Shown: piece after piece, positions 5,787 through 63,100 of the stretch
Position numbering within the stretch: position 1 is the stretch's first letter
Layout of the letters: every line of letters starts with the position of its first letter
Source of the DNA: Hypomesus transpacificus
Lineage: Eukaryota; Chordata; Actinopteri; Osmeriformes; Osmeridae
Direction of reading: 5' to 3'
Length of the DNA: 64,000 nt
Assembly (NCBI RefSeq): GCF_021917145.1
Contig: NC_061071.1
Span: 832,460-896,459, forward strand
Position numbers and translations under genes: made by a program
Notes under the pieces: generated by a model
Told to the model about the DNA's origin: nothing
Databases searched by the model: none
The model's input: only the letters and a program-made list of their open reading frames with translations

Positions 5787-11793
<6,007 letters not shown>

Positions 11794-13376
11794 GGCGAAA
11801 GGGAGCGGCGACCCAAAGACATAACTGCGCCAATCGAGGTGAGAGGGGAAGAATGGGGTCTAGCAGATTCTTTTGTCATGTAGACCTCATAGCTGGGTAG
11901 CAGTAGGTTAACCCAACCTATGCACCGATCACTGGCTGGTGACGGGCTGGTGCTGATGCTGGATTTTTGGGGCGTGTGTTATAGAGGCAGACATGCTCTT
12001 GGTGTTACATCATAGCGCTCGATACCGCCCTCTGTCGCTTGCTACAAACAACCCAAAGTTGCAGTAAATACATGCTTTGTATCAGAGGCACCAACCACCA
12101 AGTGGCAATATTGTATCATTTTCCAGTAGCTTATTTTTTTTATATTATACGACACGTTACTTCTAAATAATCCTTGCAGGGGGTTTCACCAAAACGAATT
12201 CAAACTAATCCCAGACTATGATTACTTTATTCAACCATAACTTGAATTCCTGGTTTAAGATATTCTCATTCTAGATAATAAAACAAATTCAGAATAAAGA
12301 GTATAAATAATCAAGTTTAACTTCAGAAAAACCTATGTTGGCTTCCAAGTTAACCTATGTTGGAAAATTGTTCAGAAGGACTATTTCAGTCCACACCGTT
12401 TTGAGCAATGTCTCTGGATAGATGTGTCGATCTATTTAAATTATTGCTTATCAAACATTTTCAAAAAGTAATTTTCAACAAAAACAAATATGATACACCT
12501 GGTTAAAATGACTGTTAATTAGTAATACAAGGAAGTGAAAGATATGCATAGTAAGGGGGACATAATAGGATTGTGCAGCCCATAGTGTCTCATGTTCATC
12601 CCTTTTAAACAATCTGCTTGGTTTTTGTATGTGTTAACCTGCTCCTCTCCCCAAACATGTGATGTGAATACTCAGGGCACGTGTTATCAATGCTGAACAA
12701 AAAACAAACCATGGAAGATGGCGGGTGTTTTAATGAGATTCATCAGTGAAATTTGTATTCGGCAGTTATTTGTGGAATTTCTTTATTGAATAGTCAAAGG
12801 GACTGCTGCTCACTTTTCAAGCATTATTTTTCCATTTTGAGTCATTTTTACAATGATATTCACGACAGAAACACAAATAAATACTCTATGGTATACATGT
12901 TATAACTTTTTATCTATGTTACCATGATTACATATACAATTAAAATGAGATGACTGTAAGCTCCAGTACAGCATCACCATGACCCATCAACAAAAGAAGC
13001 AATATATACATCCAATATACACTCTCCTTCCTCCTGCCATCTCACCCACACCACCATCCTGGTTTTTCTGAATTCAGCAGAGGCCGTCTGCCTCTCTGCA
13101 CCTCACTGATAAACGACTTTCTCCACCAATGGTTTTAATGGGGCGCTGTGGGCATTGCGCAGTCCAGTCTTGGGCAGAACATCAGTTTCTTCTCATACTG
13201 AGAAGCCGATCACTTCTCAGGAACAGTTAATTTTGGACACAGCTTTGTGACTCCATGACAAAACAGTTCTATACCGTAAAGCACACGTTGTTCCTTCGAG
13301 AGAGAATCCTTTCAACTAATTGTCTTCGTATACACAACACTATAGTGGTTAGTATAGTAGGTTATATAGACTACTA
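11794..13376. other. fam171b promoter side and AT-rich intergenic DNA
   Basis: Immediately upstream of the fam171b start (11793, minus strand) the sequence is relatively GC-rich to about 12050, as expected of a 5' UTR/promoter, but no specific element is convincing. From 12100 to 13376 I see AT-rich DNA with no gene. Confidence 0.4.
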
Positions 13377-13674
13377 GTCCAGTCATTTTATGAAAAAAGG
13401 TAGGACAAATTGCAACAGAAGCAAACTCAACTGATTTTGTATCCTCAATATGTCCTGAGTAAGGAAAAAAAAATCCCAGAAGAATCCCATTAGGGGAAAG
13501 TTTCGAAAAAGACTAAACTATTGACTATTCATACGATTATTCATTCTTTTTCTCATGTAAATAGGGTAAAAATGTTAACCTTTAGATATCACCATGTGAA
13601 GAAAAAAAAGCATCCTGCTGTGGACTCTGTTTACTTCATTAATGTGTTTACTGTGTTAATGGACTGAGGATGGG

Positions 13675-13765
13675 AATAGAATTGGGTATTCGGTTTCGGA
13701 TTCGGCTGAATCTTAACCAGTGGATTCGGTATTCAACCAAAACCAAAAAATCTGTATTCGGTGCA
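13675..13765. repeat. Fragment of a 'TTCGG'-rich hAT-like MITE
   Basis: A short stretch rich in repeated 'attcggt' and ending 'tcggtgcatcccta', a terminus commonly seen in fish hAT-type non-autonomous elements. It sits between the left TIR and the tandem array of the larger element. The family assignment is from memory. Confidence 0.45.
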
Positions 13766-13775
13766 TCCCTAATTT

Positions 13776-16700
13776 GGAGTCATCACAGAGCCAGCACCAC
13801 AGAGGTCACCATATCTGACGGTCGTCAGAATATGTGACCTCAATGTAGCTGCTTACCGAAGGAGTTAAAACTTTAACAATGGTTTGGGGTGTTTACGTCA
13901 TTTAAACTTTTAACTCCTTTGGGAAGCAGTTACGGTTGGGTCACACAATTATAATTTTATTTTTTTGGGTCACACATTCTGACGGCTGTCAGAAATGGTG
14001 ACCTCTATGGAACTGGCTCTGTGATGGCTCCAAATAAAAAAATATAGTTCCAGATTAGTGTGAAGGTATGATAGAACTACTTCAAACCATTGTTTGAAGT
14101 TTTAAGTCATTTGGGAAGCAGTAATGATGGGGTCACACGTAATTTTTATTTTTTTTATTTTTTGGGGGTGGGGTCACAAATTCTGACGGCTGTCAGACAT
14201 GGTGACCTCTGTGGAACTGGCTCTGTGATGGCTCCAAATCAGAAAATATGGTTCCAGATTAGTGTGAAGGGATTATATGACTACCACAAACCATTGCTTG
14301 AAGATTTAACTCCTTTGGGCAGCAGTTATGGTGGGGTCAAACATTTTTTGGAGGGCTTTTTTTCTGGGTCACACATTCTGACAGCTGTCAGAAATGGTGA
14401 CCTCTGTGGAACTGGCTCTGTGATGGCTCCAAATCAGAAAATATGGTTCCAGATGAGTGTGAAGGTATGATAGAACTGCTCCAAACCATTGTTTGAAGTT
14501 TTAACTCATTTGGGAAGCAGTTACGATGGGGTCACAAGTAATTTCGATCTTTTTTTGTTTTTGGGTCACACATTCTGACGGCTGTCAGAAATGGTGACCT
14601 CTGTGGAACTGGCTCTGTGATGGCACCAAATGAGAAAATATGGTTCCAGATTAGTGTGAAGGGATGATATGACTACCACAAACCATTGTTTGAAGATTTA
14701 ACTCCTTTAGGAAGCAGTTACGGTGGGATCACACATTTTTTGGAGGGCTTTTTTTCTGGGTCACACATTCTGACGGCTGTCAGAAATGGTGACCTCTGTG
14801 GAACAGGCTCTGTGATGGCTCCAAATCAGAAAATATGGTTCCAGATGAGTGTGAAGGTATGATAGAACTACTCCAAACAGTTGTTTAAAGTTTTAACTAA
14901 TTTGGGAAGCAGTTTTGATGGGGTCACAAGTAATTTCGATCTTTTTTAATTTATTTTTTGGGTCACACATTCTGACGGCTGTTAGAAATGGTGACCTCTG
15001 TGGAACTGGCTCTGTGATGGCTCCAAATCAGAAAATGTGGTTCCAGATGAGTGTGAAGGGATGATATGACTACCACAAACCATCGTTTAAAAATTTAACT
15101 CCTTTGGGAAGCAGATACGGTGGGATCACACATTTTTTGGAGGGCTTTTTTTCTGGGTCACACATTCTGACGGCTGTCAGAAATGGTGACCTCTGTGGAA
15201 CTGGCTCTGTGATGGCTCCAAATGAGAAAATATGGTTCAAGATTAGTGTGAAGGTATGATATGACTACCACAAACCATCGTTTGAAGATTTAACTCATTT
15301 GGGAAGCAGTTTTGACGGGGTCACAAGTAATTTCGATCTTTTTTTTATTTATTTTTTGGGTCACACATTCTGACGGCTGTCAGAAATGGTGACCTCTGTG
15401 GAACTGGCTCTGTGATGGCTCCAAATGAGAAAATATGGTTCCAGATTAGTGTGAAGGGATGATATGACTACCACAAACCATCGTTTGAAGTTTTAACTCA
15501 TTTGGGAAGCAGTTACGATGGGGTCACAAGCAATCACGATCATTTTATTTTTTGGGTCACATATTCTGACGGCTGTCAGAAATGGTGACCTCTGTGGAAC
15601 TGGCTCTGTGATGGCTCCAATTTAGAAAATATGGTTCCAGATTAGTGTGAAGGGATGATAGAACTACTCAAAACCATTGTTTGAAGTTTTAACTCATTTG
15701 GGAAGCAGTTTTGACAGGGTCACAAGTAATTTCGATCTTTTTTTAATTTATTTTTTGGGTCACACATTCTGACGGCTGTCAGAAATGGTGACCTCTGTGT
15801 AACTGGCTCTGTGATGGCTCCAAATGAGACAATATGGTTCCAGATTAGTGTGAAGGGATGATATGACTACCACAAACCATCGTATGAAGATTTAACTCCT
15901 TTGGGAAGCAGTTTAGGTGGGATCACACATTTTTTGGAGGGCTTTTTTTCTGGGTCATACATTCTGACGGCTGTCAGAAATGGTGACCTCTGTGGAACTG
16001 GCTCTGTGATGGCTCCAAATGAGAAAATACGGTTCCAGATGAGTGTGAAGGGATGATATGACTACCACAAACTATCGTTTGAAGATTTAACTCCTTTGGG
16101 AAATAGTTACGGTGGGATCACACATTTTTTGGAGGGCTTTTTTTCTGGGTCACACATTCTGACGGCTGTCAGAAATGGTGACCTCTGTGGAACTGGCTCT
16201 GTGATGGCTCCAAATCAGAAAATATGGTTCCAGATTAGTGTGAAGGTATGATATGGCTACCACAAACCATCGTTTGAAGATTTAACTCATTTGGAAAGCA
16301 GTTTTGACGGTTTCACAAGTAATTTCGATCTTTTTTTTATTAATTTTTTGGGTCACACATTCTGACGGCTGTCAGAATTTTTGACCTTTGTAGAATTGGC
16401 TCTTTGATGGCTCCAAATGAGAAAACATGGTTCCAGATTAGTGTGAAGGGATGATATCACTACCACAAACCATCGTTTGAAGATTTAACTCCTTTGGGAA
16501 GCAGTTACGGTGGGATCACACATTTTTTGGAGGGCTTTTTTTCTGGTTCACACATTCTGACGGCTGTCAGAAATGGTGACCTCTGTGGAACTAGCTCTGT
16601 GATGGCTCCAAATCAGAAAATATGGTTCCAGATGAGTGTGAAGGTATGATATGACTACCACAAACCATTGTTTGAAGTTTTTACTCATTTGGGAAGCAGT

Positions 16701-16925
16701 TACGATGGGGTCGTAAGTAATTTTGATCTTTTTTTGTTTTTGGGTCACACATTCTGACGGCTGTCAGAAATGGTGACCTCTGTGGAACTGGCTCTGTGAT
16801 GGCTCCAAATGAGAAAATATGGTTCCAGATTAGTGTGAAGGGATGATATGACTACCACAAACCATCGTTTGAAGATTTAACTCCTTTGGGAAGCAGTTAC
16901 GATGGGGTCACACATAATTTCGATT
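13776..16925. repeat. Tandem array of about 15 units of 194-203 bp with palindromic cores
   Basis: The core 'tctgacggctgtcaga' starts its 'gac' at 13981, 14184, 14380, 14577, 14772, 14973, 15169, 15372, 15568, 15771, 15965, 16161, 16363, 16559 and 16755, so periods are 194-203 bp. Each unit continues with 'ggtgacctctgtggaactgg' and 'gaagcagtta'-type sequence. Two spacer types are mixed: A, containing 'ttttttggagggcttt', and B, containing 'caagtaatttcgatc'. The first unit (about 13776-13870) is a diverged copy in inverted orientation. Open frames across the array are by-products of the repeat. Confidence 0.95.
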
Positions 16926-17467
16926 ACTAACATCAAGACAATTTTTTTTTTTTTTCTAAGTTATTTTGAAATTGTTTGTTAACATGGGCAAACGCTGCAT
17001 AATCCAATTAGGTATATGAATCTCTGCCCCTTGTTGCGACATTTGTTTGCCTCTAGTCTTTTACTGTAAGATGTCAACAAGATTCTGCAACACATTTTCA
17101 CCATATATCCAATGTCTACAAATGTTGTGGTATTTGCTAAATAGCGCATACATTGTTATGCACCGTTTTCTAATGTTACCAAGAAAAATCTGGCAATAAT
17201 TATTTTGTTTGTTTTTTATGTAAGTAATCAACTCAGTATTTTCATGGTGATATCTAAAGGTTAAAAATGTTTGCCTATTCGCATGTGAAAAAGAATGAAT
17301 ATGAATAGGCTTTATTTGGGTCATATCAAAACTTTCCCTATAATGGGATTCTTCTGGGCTTCTTTTTCCTTAGTCAGGACATAATGACGATACAAAATCA
17401 GTTGGGTTTGCTTCTGTTGCAATTTGTCCTAGGTTGACCCCCATTTTGGCTTAAAATGACTGGACTA

Positions 17468-20400
17468 TACTCATACCTTCAGCCTTTGTTTCGTTGATCA
17501 AATAGCCATCAGGATCGGTTCAAAGAACGGTTGATTCTAGATGGTTCACTGTATGTGCAAACATGACTGTAATGCATAATCCAACAGTCAGGTCCAACCC
17601 CCACATTCCAGATAGACCCTCATCACAAAATTCTATTGACATTTTAAACATTACCTTTCTCAAACTAAATGCTACATCAAGTAATTCAGTCACAAGTTCA
17701 CATTCTGATGTAGTGAAATAGTTATGTCAGACGTTTCTGTTTGCCAATATTTCCATTAGGGAACGTAAAAAGCTTTTCATTAAAATAGTGATCAAATCAT
17801 TTTATCGCAGACTGTAAAAGACTGTACATATTTAACCAATCCAAACCTAAACCACAATGTGTTTGACAGCCATATCGGCATCCATAAATTTGCGTTGTTC
17901 ATGGTTGTCAAAATAATTGATATGACGAGTGTTACAATTATTACACTTAACAGTGAAAAATGTAATACTTAAAAGTGACCTACATCTGCTTACTGCTGAC
18001 AACAACATGGGAATTAGAACTATACAAAGCCTGCTCTTGCATTTATTGTTACATGGTGTACTTGTGAAATTTTTGGGTGACTAGTAAAAATGTGTTTGTT
18101 GTTGTCTGTGTCACCCATTTGCAATAATAAAGAATCGATCCATTTAGGAGATTTGGTGGCAAAAAGTAAGTCAAAATGCACAAAAGACAAAATAAAGAAC
18201 ATCAAACCTCAATCAATACATGTAGGCCTACATTAAAATGGTGAAATGAAGGACAGTGTCTCTTGAAAATAGGAAACATCATTATTCCCATTTCGCCACA
18301 CCAATGTAATGGTTCATTACATCCATCAGGAAATTAGGAATTGCCAAAGCAGAACCGAAATGACCATTAACAAATCCGAGATGCACCTGCTAGCCAATCC
18401 CACTTCTGTTTCCCCCGCTCTGTCCTTTGAACAAACAACACAGCACTGCGTTAACACACACACACACAGACATGCATAAACACACACACACAATCAGCAT
18501 GTGTTTAATAGGGCGCTGGGCTCTCACATAAGGGGCTTGAGGTCCAGTGACAGCTTTAAGGATGTAGGGTTACCATGACATCTGACAGAACTGACACAAA
18601 CAGCTGCATCTCATTAGTGACCATGGTGGCTGCCAGTGAACAAAGAAATGATTTACTCTGTTTAATAAATGTTTCTTTAAAGTCTGACAAATGGATTCAA
18701 ATGAATGTCAAATTATAGTTAGTACAAAAACAGTTTGCTCTGTAAATATTTTACAGTCCATTTACACTCTGTAACATATCAGTAAAAAGATCCACACAAC
18801 CACCCCTTATAAAAGTGACTTTAAATGAGTCAGGAGACTCAATGCCAGACAGTTGTCTCCAGGTCATGTGTTGCTAATGTTTTATTCTGTCTTTGTGAAG
18901 GTCATGGCCTATGAGGGAGAACACAATCAGAGAGGCAAGAAATTGGCTCTAGGGGCCCAAAATGGATTCCTAAACCACTGACTGAACTCTCTAAGATGAT
19001 TCAAAGAAAAAGGTATGTGAAAAGGGGCAGATCTTAATTTACTATCTTCCCCATGGGATCTGAAATGTTGGAATGGAAAGGTAAGAGTAGGAAGGGCAAG
19101 CACAACGTTCCTTGAATAGTGGACTGACATTACCTACCTCAGGTTTTCACTTGTCTTCCATTTGTCTAAATACTTACTAGCATTTTAACAAACTAGGATC
19201 TATACGCCCATGAGTTCAATATATGTAAACATACATTCAGCTTGAAGTTGATGAACAGAATCTTGGTGGTGTCTATTTTTAATGGTCTGAGGTAAAAATG
19301 GACTGTTTGAGTGTTTCACCGTGCACATGACCAATAATACACCCAAAGAAAAAACGACTGGCATATTTTAAGATTCATTGTTAAGCGTTACATGCTTCCA
19401 CTGGGGCTTCTCATTGATGCCTTGCTGTCTAAAAGGAAGGATGGAAATATGACAAAAGGGAAGGCTGTCCTATTATGTTATTTTCAGCCCGAGATTACAC
19501 AGCTATGTTTTATTGTGTAACGCTGATCGAATACTCATTTGTATGCTACAAGATTTATCTCAACATAATTGTATCACCCCCCCCCCTTCCCCCTCACATA
19601 TTTCTGTCCTGAGAGTTTTGCTGTGATTCAGTCTGTTGAGATCTGGATAATTAGGTTTGATTGAATCAAGTCCCAAACCCTGAATGGAAACACCAAGTGA
19701 ATTAGTATCCCTTTGTTTACCACATAAATCTCCCCACCATTCCCCTCTTCCAAGCCTCTCCTAACGTGAGCCAGGTCCAGATCGGCTGTTTTCCACACTC
19801 CCAGGGGTCCACCGTGATGTGCCCAGCCCTCAATCACATTACTTTAATATCATTATGGAATCCGTTCTATCATGTACAAGCGGTCACTGCATGTGAGAGA
19901 GCGGCATGGGTGGTATTCGTGAGATCTGGTAGGAACACATCCAGGGCCAAGCGGCCAGCAGTATTGATTGGAGTCAACCATTGCTCTTGATTTAGCCATC
20001 GCACATCTGTAGCAGCCTTGTAAGGCTAATGACAGGACCATTCATCTTTCCTAACAGTGACAGGGAGAGACACACTGACCTCTGCTTTCTCAGGCTAATT
20101 AATAATATTCCATTCATTACGCTCTGCTGTGCGGTGGACTGAGGGCTTGTAGGACAATGTCTCAGTGACTAAGCCCAGAATAAAAGCATGATTAAGATGA
20201 GGGACATGAGGTCAGGAGCATGCCTTTGCCTTTTTGGCCTCATATTGGTTCTCCTGGGGTTTCCAATTTGTTTTCTGCTGAAAGTTATCATGTACAGTAA
20301 AAGTCATCACAGTCTGTTAAGTTTAACTTAATATCATCTTTACATTTGTTAAACTGTAATGGTGTATTTGATGTGGAGATTTGGCATTGTAGACTGTAGA

Positions 20401-26600: not shown

Positions 26601-29600
26601 GAAGCGTTTTCCCCCAGTTGCTCTACGTAATGGACTACGGGATATCTAAGTGGTTCAAACACATTTTCACCATGAATGTCATGACAGGTATTGATATTCA
26701 GCCTAAACTGAGCTCTTTGGATCAGTAAACAAAGTTGCGACACCATCACAGGGTCCGAGATCAAATCCGGAGGAAGGCACTGACTAGCAAACGCTCACCA
26801 TGGACTCATGGGAGGACATCAATTGCCTGTGATCTTCTAAAAGCCCTTCAACAGATTGCAATCTGTCTCTATGCCGAGTCTCACCACAGGACGTGTGCCC
26901 ATGATCGGGAAGAAGTGCACACTCAGTAAAATGGAGAGCCCTTTAAATTCAATTTGTCTCGGAAAAAGATATAATCTAGCCGGTGGAAAAGGCAGTGATT
27001 TGTTTAATTTACTTAACATAATGCTATCAATGCTATCATAATCTATCAAATATTATGGCTTCAGAGGATACGGGACCATCATAAAAACTTTTTTACATCT
27101 TGCCTCTACTGCACCAATTAACTGACACCTATCTTATAAGGTGAACATATATGTATTGATTATATGTCATATGACGGCTTGAAATGTGGGGTTCTTTCTC
27201 CTTGGTGTGACGTGACACCTAATTTAATAACATATCACAGCAGAAGGATAAGCCTACAGTGGAGATCCTATACTTGCTTGTGCTGCGCAATTGTCGTTAC
27301 AGTATAATGCGTGTGCAATGCACTATGTATATTAAGTGTGAGTCTGACACTTTTCTTCCAATAATTTCGCCGTAGATACCCAGCTTTTGTTCACAACAAA
27401 AAAATAAGGGCACAGATTCACTCTGGCAATAATATATTTTACGTTGGAGTCTCCAATGAAGGCATCTTTTAGCTGAGTCTTCACAACTGTACCTACCTCA
27501 GCACCCGTCAGCATCCCCAAGTGTACTGACAGACTGGTCTCTTCTGTGCCACCTGAATACATTTTTCATATCGAAGAGTACAAAAGATGTGTCCCTCCAG
27601 ACAGAACGCTGCGAACCTGAAGTTGCCACAATGAGTAAGGACCTCTGAATGACGTCCCTACTGTATCTCTCTCTCACACACTAGCTCAAGCAGTGAAATA
27701 TGTAGGCACTTGGCAACTCTTCAACACAGCCCTAATTAAATAGCGTCCCAGAGGGTTGACTTGAGTGTCAGGTTTGATTTAAATCGTCCACTAATTTAAT
27801 GTGTGGAAAACCCGTGCCATGTTAGATTATTAACAAACAAAAAAATATAGTATGAGAGGTAAATCACAGAGGGCAAAAGTCTTAATAGGAAACCAACCTT
27901 TTTTCACTGTGTTAGCTGTCTCAGGAGAAAGGCGTCCAACACTGTAGCTGTCAGTTCAGGTAAAGAGAAAAAACAAGATTACTTTGGCATGGACTGGACA
28001 ATACAATATATAATTTCCCAATGGGCAGGCCATTCTGTTCAGGCACAGAGTCATTATCTGTGTTCCCTTCTTAGTAGACTAATTATAGTCATATTTGAAC
28101 AGCTAGTGAAACCTAATGTTTTTGTGGGGTTTTCTTAATCAAGCATGACTGAGGGAAACAAAATGAGATAATTCAATTTTTGATTGGATGTGGTCCCCAC
28201 AGCAAGGTGCATGGTTTATTCCAGTGTAAGCCTTAATCGACATTTTCTCATCCTCTATTCAATGTGGCCATGAATGAAAACAGTAAAGCAGACAATTCAC
28301 ATGCAGGGGTTCAAACATGAATGACATTCTTCTTGAAGACACTCACAAACACATAGACATAACTACATGCTCTTATGGTTTCTTCCCTTTAGCACTTATT
28401 TTTGGTTGTTCACAATGTGTACTTCTGTTTTTGGCTACCTGCAATGCTTTGGCGCTATCTTGTTGTTATTATCAGTGACCTATGCACTTTGTAAAGCTCT
28501 CTCTTGGAAGTCGCTTTGGATAAAAGCGTCTGCTAAATGAATAAATGTAATGTAAATGTAGACATACACCTTCAAAACAGGGGAATTGCTAGTGCTGGGA
28601 AAAGGGAAAGTAAGTAATGGGGCCCTTGGCTTGGCAGAAGGCCACGCTTGTGTGCCTTAGAAATTTGTGTTAGTCTCTAATTTAAAAAGGAACAAGCCAA
28701 AGCTTTTCTTGCAATACCACTTCACACGCTTACACATACTAAAACTTTTTACTGTATTATCAAATACAAACAAGTTTAAAGGGCATAGTTGCCCTATAAA
28801 CTTGTTTTATGATGGTGCACTTGGGATATGATGTTGCTACAGACAGTCCCTGCCGTACTTACTACACAAAAATGCACAATTTGTTTTTCACTTTGTTAAA
28901 ATTGACTGCTAAAAAACATTTTACAACGTAACAACCAGGTGAAAGAATTCCGTGCACTCCGAGACTACCTCCAAAACCATAAACAAAATGTCACTATCAT
29001 ATTTCAAATGAATGCAATTAACTTTACAAATTGCTTTTTTATTTTCATTCATTTATGAGGCTCAGTCACCCATGTCCTTACCATGCAATCAATCCATTGT
29101 TGTTATCTGATCTAGAAGGGAATAATCAAAAAGTTATTCACTGTCTTTGACGACTGAAATATAAATAGATCTGACAATAATAATAGAAATGCGTCTTTTT
29201 TAATCGTACTGTCCTTGTAAGCGTTGCCTTTGAACAGTCACCTTATGCAATGGTGGACTCTGTGTACAATTTTATAATATAGAATTTAATCAAAATCCTA
29301 CAATTGCAAGGGAAAGATAAGATTTAGCAAAGCCATTTAAAACCAGGAAACAAAACATTTTGTTGAACTGAACATTCCCTGAATGAACATGAAGAATGAT
29401 CCAAATTGAGTTTAAACTGAATTAAATCCAGACAACCCTAAACTTAAACAATAACCAGCACACACACTTTAAACCATGTACTTTCACCTATACACCAAAT
29501 TTAGCTAATTCCAGTACCCAAACTTTATCGGGGAGAGTCTGCGGATTGCAGACAGTGGTTTTCAGTATTCTGTAGAAACACTGTTCTAGTGGAGATGACA

Positions 29601-48052: not shown

Positions 48053-50252
<2,200 letters not shown>

Positions 50253-58420: not shown

Positions 58421-60001
58421 GAAAACATATTGGGTAAAGCAGAACTAGACTGAGAGAGACATAAAGACAGACCAAGGGAAATATAGACAGAACGAGAGAA
58501 ATACTGGGACAGAAAGAGTGAGCGAGGGAGAGAGAGAAAGACAGAGAGACAGTTCAGTTGCCGTATCTCATACCGTCCAGTGATGAGAAGGAAAAGAGTA
58601 AGGATGACCAATAAAGAAAAGCCGCCCACCGCTGCTGTGACAACCACCAGCACCTGACCCTGATCAGCCACCATTTCCGAGCCTGGGGAGAGAGCAAAGC
58701 CACACTATGTAACACACACACACACACAAATCCCCTTTTTTTCCAAAGCACAGCCAAACAAACACTTAATCACTCTCTCACACTCACACACACACACACA
58801 CATTGCCTCTGGGCTTACTCTCTGCTGCGGTAGAAAACTCAAACTTGGGGCTGTAGGCGGTGAAGCCAGTGGTGGTGCGAGCGCGCACGTGGAACACGTA
58901 CAGGGTGGAGGGATGGAGGCCTGTTACCACCACGCTGGGGGTCTTGGTGCGCGTCGACGAGTAGCTCAGCTGTTCCTGCTCCTGGTGGGAGACACGACAC
59001 AACACATACCATATATAATACTATGATAATAACACACATACCATATATAATACTATGATAATAACACACATACCATATATAATACTATGATAATAACACA
59101 CATACCATATATAATACTATGATAATAACACACATACCATATATAATACTATGATAATAACACACATACCATATATAATACTATGATAATAACACACATA
59201 CCATATATAATACTATGATAATAACACACATACCATATATAATACTATGATAATAACACACAAGTACACACAACTAAACAGGTTAGGCCGGTTGTGCTTG
59301 CAGCTCAGAACCCTTTTCTAAAGCAATAATGTAAAGTGAATTTGAACTATTCTCTCTGGACATCTGCACTTTTAGCTCTGATCATAGACAGTCTTCGTAC
59401 AGACCTCTGCATTTAATATAAACCCTTTTTGAAAGTGCTTAGAGTTTATGGTTGTGTTCTGTGGTAGTAGTGTTTATTTACTAGACTCAGTAGACTAAGA
59501 CTAGATTTAGTAGACTTTGGTCTGTTGACAGTAGACTGACTTAGAAGATAAACATGGTGCAGAGCACATACCTTCTCATAGTACTTGATCTCATAGTCCA
59601 GAATCACCAGTGCGAGCTGCTCCACCTCTGTCCAGGAGAGGGCGATACTATTTTGGGAGGACCAGTCCATACGTACCACACCCACCAGAGAGGGACCTGA
59701 ACACCGGGACACATTTTGACAATATTCAGTATAGCCAACCCTCAAAATCTGTGGGTGATTTTCTGTCTGTTAAGTGTGGTGCAGGACAATCATATATCAG
59801 ACATAGTATGTAATATAGTAGGACAGTACAGACTTATACACCTATATAGCTATTTAGGAATAGCGCTTAAACATTTATTGGAAAACAGAAACAGACATTT
59901 AATCGGAGACAGAAAGGTGATGCAGAGATAAGACATTTTATTGTGTTTGTGAAAATTATATTTCTGCAGCTGATTGCATGTGGGTGTGTGTGCAGGTCTA
60001 A

Positions 60002-60125: not shown

Positions 60126-63100
60126 CTAGACGTAGCGGACTTGATTGAATTTCTCCCAGGTAAATATTCACTCAGGGCATAGCTGAGCTGCCATCTGGGT
60201 AATAACAGCATGTGTTAGAGTAATGACTCTAACTGTTAATACTGCTATGCAAATCTAGGGCTTGTACGAGGTGGAGCAGACGTGGGGAGGGAGAGGGAGG
60301 GAGGGAGGGACTGGGAAAGAGATAGTGAGTAATGGAGGTAGGGAGAGACTGAGTGAGTTCAAAGACGAAAGAAAGAGGGTAAAGGAAGGAGTTAGAACGA
60401 TGAGAGATAGAGGAAGGACAGAGGGAGGCGGTGAGAGGGGAAGCAAGCAGAAATGTACAGAAGAAGGAGGGATTTGAGAAAGTGATAGAGGGGCAGAAGA
60501 GAAAAAAGAGAAAATGAAAAATGATTGCGGTCTGCAGGGATCAGGACTAATCATGCTCTCGCTAGCTATTGTATTTTCCTCTATAATTCCATCCTGTCTG
60601 GACTCTAATGACTGAAATGCAAACGAGACCTTGGTCAATCCATTAAGATGTAGGCCTAATGTAATTCAAGCAAAATTCAGACATTGAGAACGCAACAAAG
60701 TTTTCTCTAAACGCAACGTGGTTAGGCTGGGCTCCTCACAACAAAGTACAATACATTGCAATATAATATAATGCATTGCAGTATAATACTAAACTATTCA
60801 AGACATTCCAATTTGTCTTTAACTTTGATATTTCGCAGCTCCTCCCCAGTCAGCAGTAGTATGGTTGAATGGTTCGATTAATCTGTTTAAACCTAAAGAC
60901 GAGCTAATGGAAACTCATTACAGAAGCCTCGACCTTCATCTGAATTCTAATTAGCTCTCCCCTCAGCTTAAAGGCCTTTCCATGGACTCTGAGGGGAATT
61001 AATCAATCTGGATTGTATGGATCCCAAGACATGCCTCCACGATAAAGAAATAATGATCAGTCCGGAGCCATCCAAGTATAGTGGATCACCAAAGCTGAAA
61101 GAGACTAAACCAAATCCATTGATCCATTTATTTTTAAGGGTTGAAAAGTAACACGGTGTAATGTATGTGGATAGATGGATCTCTCCAATGCACATGCTCC
61201 CTCCTGATTGGTTGGATGGATCTCTTCAATGCATATGCTCCCTCCTGATTGGTTGGAAGGATTTCTCCAATGCACATGCTCCCTCCTGATTGGTTGGAGG
61301 GATGATTTTATTCTTGTGTGCCAACAGTAGAGCAGAGCATAGAAAGAGAGCATACAGACACTGTCTGCTGTACACGCACTGTGTGAGTATGTGCAGTTAT
61401 GTATGTGTGTGTGTGTGTGTGTGTGTGCACATGCCTGCTTGTGTGCATGCGCAGGGGTATGTGTGCATGCATGCGTGTGCATGTGCTCGCATGCTTGTGG
61501 GTGTATCACACACGTGTCCACCTAGGGCAAAAGCACAGGAGGGAGAGGTAGAGAAAAGATGTCCCTTGAAAGCATATCTCCCCCAGTAGCTGATCATAAA
61601 AATAGAAGGTGGCCTTATTCCCAGCACAGGAAGAGAGAACGGTGGAAAGATCCAGTCCCAGAAAGCACCACAATAACAGAGCTGAATTAAAAGCTAGCAC
61701 AATGTATTGTAGAGTATATTTAAGATGTACATTCAGTAGGACTGTGCTACTGCTCTCTAATACAGAATGAAGAGGTTTAAGCACAAATGACCGATTCACT
61801 TAAACGGACTCAATGCAATCTTTACTCTTGATTCAAATTCACTAATGCTAATTACTAACATGCAACACTAAAATACATTTATATTCTTAAATATTAATCC
61901 CCATAGTAATCCTGAACATTATTATATGTATTATTTCAATCATATATTGATGGACTATCCTTAAATCAACATGTAATCCTAATGTATACACTGAATATAT
62001 TTCGGGACATAATTGATGGCACAGTCTTAAAAAACAACTTATCGAGTGTACACAGACTACATGCAACAGCGAAGGAGAATTCATTAGGAGTATTGTTTGA
62101 ATAAACTTTGCATAATTAAAAGTATAATGAGCCATTAATATACCATTTGCATATGATAAGTGCCTGAGACGAAAACAAACCCTAGTTTAATGTGTTCTGG
62201 ATGAAACCCCAGTCAAATGTAATTTGTTTGTTTCTCTGTGATCAATAATTTAATGATCAATGACCGATCCATCATCGAAACAAAATAACTTCTACGACTA
62301 TGATGTGACAAGTCTGTCTCATATTTGACTAACTAACTAACTTCTGGGATAGTTCTTAAAGCAAAACTTTCCAACTGAGGCAGCATACAGCTCAGTGGCA
62401 AACATACGATCAGAAGCACTATTTGTTTGTGTGTGTCTGCCAGCATTCCTGCCTGTGTGTGGTGTGTGTGTGGTGTCTCTGTGTGTGCGTGTGTGTGTGT
62501 GTGGTGTGTGTGTGGTGTGTGGCTCCCCAAGCTGAGCAGCCTGCCAGTCTGTTTGGTAATGAGAGTTTTTTGACGTTCCAGTTGCAGCTGCAGACTAGGG
62601 CGAGTTGACAGCCCCATTTTGACGAGTCAATTCCACCCCTCCCCCACAAACAAGACACACACCCCGATGGAAAAGGCAAGCTGTTTCTCAGCCTCCGGAG
62701 AGAAAATTTACATTTGGAAGCAAAATACAAAATCCCATCATCTTCCTTGGCTCTCACAGGGTGCTCTGTGTGTTCTAACCCACATTAATGTCAGCTCCAA
62801 CGCTCACTTGCTTCCGCCGAGAGTCCACGAACAGCATTAATTGAAAAGTGACTGTGATTTTAACACACCTTTTGCCAGCCTTTGTGAACTGCGCTCATAG
62901 CTAAACCTTGAAATTGTATAAAGGGTAGCATTCGTCCTGCATACCAAACAGCAGGCCGGAGTCTCTACATCTGAATATCAAAAACCCAGTTCGTCCGGCA
63001 CATACAGTAGGGGACAGAAAACATTCTCAAAAGAATTCCCTTACCTGTATGTGAAATGGTTCAACTCCTCAAGTTTCTTTGTATACTAAGGATGTTTTAA

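Follow-up and report, generated by a model that had tools for sequence, protein, structure and literature searches.

A satellite-like tandem array between imperfect terminal inverted repeats in Hypomesus transpacificus: a probable non-autonomous DNA transposon copy

The locus described here raises the question of whether two imperfect inverted repeats and the tandem array that lies between them make up a single transposable element and, if they do, how the array might have come to be its cargo. We addressed this question within the 64-kb stretch of Hypomesus transpacificus DNA referred to below as the window, with all positions counted from its first base. The window has a G+C content of 42.9% and a CpG observed/expected ratio of 0.44. 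Six of its open reading frames (ORFs) were scanned against Pfam; three of them had no family, and those with one, all on the minus strand, gave the N- and C-terminal domains of FAM171 and a leucine-rich-repeat protein. The minus strand also carries a segment similar to the high-affinity choline transporter (E 4e-75). The C-terminal part of FAM171 is at 5787-7211 and the N-terminal part at 9582-9986, and the element sits to the right of both, that is, upstream of them on the minus strand. An ORF at 11458-11859 on the same strand has a hydrophobic stretch and might be a candidate first exon.

Several other repeats were noticed in the window. The segments 28505-28564 and 49627-49683 form an inverted pair of 60 columns with 82% identity and may represent two copies of some other dispersed repeat. 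TRF found 8.2 copies of a 32-bp A+T-rich unit with 100% matches at 59002-59262, which is probably a very young minisatellite, and 3.2 copies of a 41-bp unit with 92% matches at 61174-61303.

Inverted repeats and the ends of the element

The two arms were delimited by aligning them with each other. The left terminal inverted repeat (TIR) occupies 13375-13596 on the plus strand and starts with TAGTCCAGTCATTTTA, and the right one occupies 17243-17467 on the minus strand. BLAST aligned 13375-13596 with 17467-17243 at 79.8% identity over 233 columns, and the local alignment score of one arm against the other was 237; when one arm was shuffled 500 times by mononucleotides, the highest score was 30. 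The outermost 16 bases are the same in both arms and the longest exact run common to them is 26 bases; from the 16-base end the arms align over their full length, and the flanks do not continue the match. The pair also stands apart from the background of the window. A minus-strand self-BLAST at E up to 1e-3, run with the low-complexity filter and leaving aside rows that start within 13700-16950, gave three inverted pairs, of which the TIRs scored 204 bits and the next two 58 and 47 bits. The imperfect inverted repeats of about 220 bp reported in the preliminary description are thus confirmed, and known transposon TIRs have a range that takes in arms of about 225 bp. As the arms are just 80% identical, either the copy is old or the arms were unlike from the outset.

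In the IR/DR type, which is the Sleeping Beauty kind of Tc1 elements, a direct repeat occurs twice within each TIR. We found no such second direct repeat when the first 70 bases of each TIR were compared with the remainder of the same TIR: the scores were 14 and 16, and the corresponding shuffles (300 each) had means of 15.4 and 14.2 and maxima of 26 and 25.

The exact ends allow more than one interpretation. Both arms end in TA, at 13375-13376 and 17466-17467, and this TA falls within the sequence common to the two arms, so that two readings of the target duplication fit. If TA was duplicated, the element would be 13377-17465. A duplication of TAC, which is present outside the left TIR at 13372-13374 and outside the right TIR at 17468-17470, fits as well, and in that case the element would be 13375-17467. 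With one copy, the choice between the two is ambiguous. The TA flanks noted previously on both sides are therefore truly there, but they belong to the arms themselves, and the TAC reading fits equally. Besides TAC/TA, no exact direct repeat was found at lengths of 2-12 for the ends 13375/17467 or at lengths of 2-10 for the ends 13377/17465. In particular, an exact duplication of 8-10 bp, of the kind expected for hAT, Mutator-like or Tetris-like foldback elements, is absent with either pair of ends. For repeats of 8, 9 and 10 bp, the matching positions number 3/8, 3/9 and 4/10 with the outer pair of ends, and 2/8, 1/9 and 7/10 with the inner pair. The imperfect 10-bp repeat (7/10) may be due to chance, given the number of lengths and ends tried. 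Tc1/mariner is the usual guess for elements with a TA duplication and would be a tentative placement here, where TAC fits as well.

The tandem array and the rest of the interior

Wholly enclosed by the two arms is a tandem array at 13904-16924 on the plus strand, delimited by TRF and unit alignment, with an approximate left limit. TRF described it both as 15.2 copies of a 195-bp unit (84% matches, 13909-16915) and as 7.6 copies of a 398-bp unit (89% matches, 13909-16924), the longer period being the better fit. Cutting the array with a script that began at 13909 gave 15 complete units, head to tail and each 192-204 bp long, and a partial one of 49 bp. The units could be divided into two types, A, which holds the motif GGAGGGC (6 of the 15), and B, which is without it (9 of the 15), and their order is BBABABABBBAABAB followed by the partial unit. 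Mean pairwise identity is 93.7% for A-A, 90.2% for B-B and 86.1% for A-B pairs. By distance, mean identity is higher between units two positions apart (90.5%, 13 pairs) than between immediate neighbours (87.2%, 14 pairs). These identities by lag and type suggest that the array grew partly by AB dimers. Taken alone, the A/B alternation does not reach significance, with 10 switches out of 14 possible, a number reached or passed in 1948 of 20000 shuffles. A simple gradient of homogenisation from both edges to the middle was also considered and finds no support: the lowest mean identities to the other units are those of u2 (85.5%), u13 (85.7%) and u1 (87.0%), so that the inner u13 is as low as the leftmost units, whereas u15, the last whole unit on the right, has a high value (90.2%).

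The units have a palindromic core, and under RNA parameters each of the 15 cores forms a hairpin; they were picked by a pattern allowing up to 6 substitutions, which itself favours likeness, and hence this is no independent test of the hairpin. One whole unit folded as DNA gave z -2.36, with 2 of 200 shuffles as stable, and we draw no function from these folds.

The array is accompanied by other sequence within the element. Next to the left TIR lies a non-repeated segment (13601-13680, plus strand), the last bases of which overlap the presumed start of a hAT-like piece; elsewhere in the window, the best match to this segment has E 0.51. On the other side, 318 bp of non-repeated sequence (16925-17242, plus strand) connect the array with the right TIR; this segment has no recognisable coding sequence, and its next best window match has E 0.005 over 44 columns. 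The two interior ends, from TIR to array, do not pair with each other as inverted repeats, their score being 24 (mean of 18.2 and maximum of 28 in 300 shuffles). Further copies of the TIRs, the non-repeated parts or the units were sought in the window and none was convincing, the best reaching 32.8 bits (E 0.005).

As for coding capacity, the element holds 17 stop-to-stop ORFs of at least 50 aa. Nine of these were scanned against Pfam with E up to 1, the other eight being in the array, and no transposase family was found in the nine; their sole match was a weak one to DER1 (E 0.091), whose 13.1 bits fall short of the cut-off of 26.6. The initial account of the interior, as an array of tandem units of about 200 bp in place of a transposase, consequently holds in most respects. 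The array is borne out by TRF and by the 15 units, and the statement that a transposase is missing finds support for the 9 of 17 ORFs scanned. What has to be added is that the interior is more than an array: it also includes a reversed unit and, beside the two TIRs, non-repeated sequence, which amounts to about 80 bp on the left, where the hAT-like piece follows, and to 318 bp at the other end.

Origin of the element and of its array

Taken together, the anatomy points to one copy, about 4.09 kb long, of a non-autonomous cut-and-paste DNA transposon, with imperfect TIRs of about 225 bp and an interior satellite-like array of units of about 195-204 bp. We would give this reading a probability of about 0.72. 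It retains the core of what was originally proposed, a TIR element that encloses an array and is without a recognisable transposase, which the structure supports well, and departs from it as to the TA flanks, which are ambiguous. Because of its anatomy, such a non-autonomous element would have been moved, if at all, by an outside transposase: the TIRs would serve, or would once have served, as binding sites for a transposase supplied in trans. The array, judging by the pattern of unit identities, would have grown in place through unequal exchange or replication slippage, partly by AB dimers of about 398 bp. Several points weigh against this explanation: a single copy is in hand, the arms are 80% identical, and the putative target duplication is not only ambiguous but also short. 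The non-significant A/B alternation and the missing gradient of divergence across the array count against it as well.

The alternatives depend largely on how the left edge of the array is interpreted. Immediately before the first direct unit is a diverged partial unit in reversed orientation (13772-13903, minus strand), whose identity to the 15 direct units is 77-86% and which is without most of the spacer, roughly 30 bases long, present in those units. Together with the first direct unit it forms a foldback of 264 bp at 13772-14035, the outer ends of which read ATTTGGAG and CTCCAAAT. Adjoining it is a piece on the minus strand at 13676-13771, its left limit guessed, with TAGGGATGCACCGAAT on that strand, which we take to resemble one end of a hAT-type element. 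An evident second end is absent, and there is no further copy of the piece within the 64 kb. Short forms of this hAT-like end were also looked for in literature text, where the sole match, in the text available, was a population study of the lake minnow. Overall, the left array edge appears to have undergone several rearrangements or insertions.

A possible, if rather unlikely, alternative is that the TIR element is real and the array is a later arrival, that is, a dispersed satellite or another element that was inserted or captured, expanded here and never moved with the TIRs. The reversed diverged unit and the putative hAT-like end at the left border do look like leftovers of separate insertions. 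In addition, one A and one B unit had no match in the non-array parts of the element (E up to 1, no low-complexity filter), and in the rest of the window the best match of the same units was one of 17 bases with 31.9 bits and E 0.003. However, no clean end that would mark insertion of the array was seen, and on its right side the array stops in the middle of a unit at about 16924.

We also consider it unlikely that a nested insertion, palindromic and MITE-like, at about 13772-14035 was the source of the array, one of its arms having been amplified head to tail with some flank. In favour of this scenario, 13772-14035 folds almost end to end: folded as DNA, 13769-14035 reached -87.5 kcal/mol (z -16.7), and none of 200 shuffles was as stable. 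The outer ends of the palindrome, given above, also speak for it. On the other hand, about 25 bases of the inter-unit linker are present at the inner end of the reversed unit, and this part of the reversed copy is a better fit to a reversed array unit than to the arm of a MITE. Finally, that the locus is no transposon and that an inverted duplication of host sequence flanks a satellite array by chance is very improbable, as the single copy seen and the absence of a long target duplication are set against arms of a length known from transposon TIRs that end jointly at a 16-base identical end by TA/TAC, with unmatched flanks.

Relation to known satellite-bearing elements

Satellites associated with non-autonomous elements include miDNA4 of Xenopus tropicalis, reportedly the work of Scalvenzi and Pollet, and Xstir (Xmix MITE) of Xenopus, said to be that of Hikosaka and Kawahara. 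According to the available portions of a 2025 review, tandem repeats inside MITEs can expand into arrays that become satellites, for which miDNA4 (a Tc1/mariner MITE of Xenopus) and Xstir serve as models (PMC12628747), and the part of a 2022 review at hand lists miDNA4, Xstir and more (PMC9659126). As far as these excerpts go, miDNA4 shares with our element that it is a vertebrate non-autonomous inverted-repeat element with a satellite inside, as one monomer or as an array (PMC12628747, PMC9659126). It differs in that a TA duplication is just one of the readings for the present element, and the likeness is one of description. Xstir is similar in its tandem repeats tied to a MITE and in its MITE, array and composite forms, as these are summarised in the same excerpts (PMC12628747, PMC9659126), but its repeats may derive from internal MITE sequence, whereas here the tested units have no match in the rest of the element. 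Tetris of Drosophila virilis, in the accessible text of its description, resembles our element in being non-autonomous, with tandem repeats of about 220 bp in an inverted-repeat element and without conserved ORFs; it is unlike it in carrying the repeats in its TIRs (foldback type) and in having duplications of 8-10 bp (PMC4079207). The present array is central and, save for one reversed unit, in one orientation, and no exact 8-10 bp duplication accompanies it. Helitrons are not known to have long terminal inverted repeats, in which respect the present element, having them, differs from this group. What it has in common with Helitrons/Helentrons is a central satellite-like array, as mentioned in the portions of the 2025 review consulted here (PMC12628747). 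By anatomical analogy with what these partial sources describe, the element is of the miDNA4 kind, a MITE with an internal satellite, and this kind has already been described.

Searches for relatives gave nothing further. Six sequence pieces from the TIRs and units had no match found in literature text. An exact-pattern search with a 24-base piece common to both TIRs gave 0 matches in viral and prokaryotic contigs, and a 27-base unit core (with one two-way position) likewise gave 0 matches in these contigs; both results say little, as the element's own genome may be excluded from the two collections.

It is quite doubtful, though worth stating, that the locus represents a transposon family of vertebrates, perhaps of fish, which would carry a two-type, higher-order satellite of AB dimers as stable cargo and would have seeded arrays at many sites, with copies differing mainly in array length. 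As a single locus, the element mostly illustrates a route to satellites that has been described already. If copies with differing array lengths exist, it would add another vertebrate example in which the origin and dispersal of a satellite might be followed from copy to copy.
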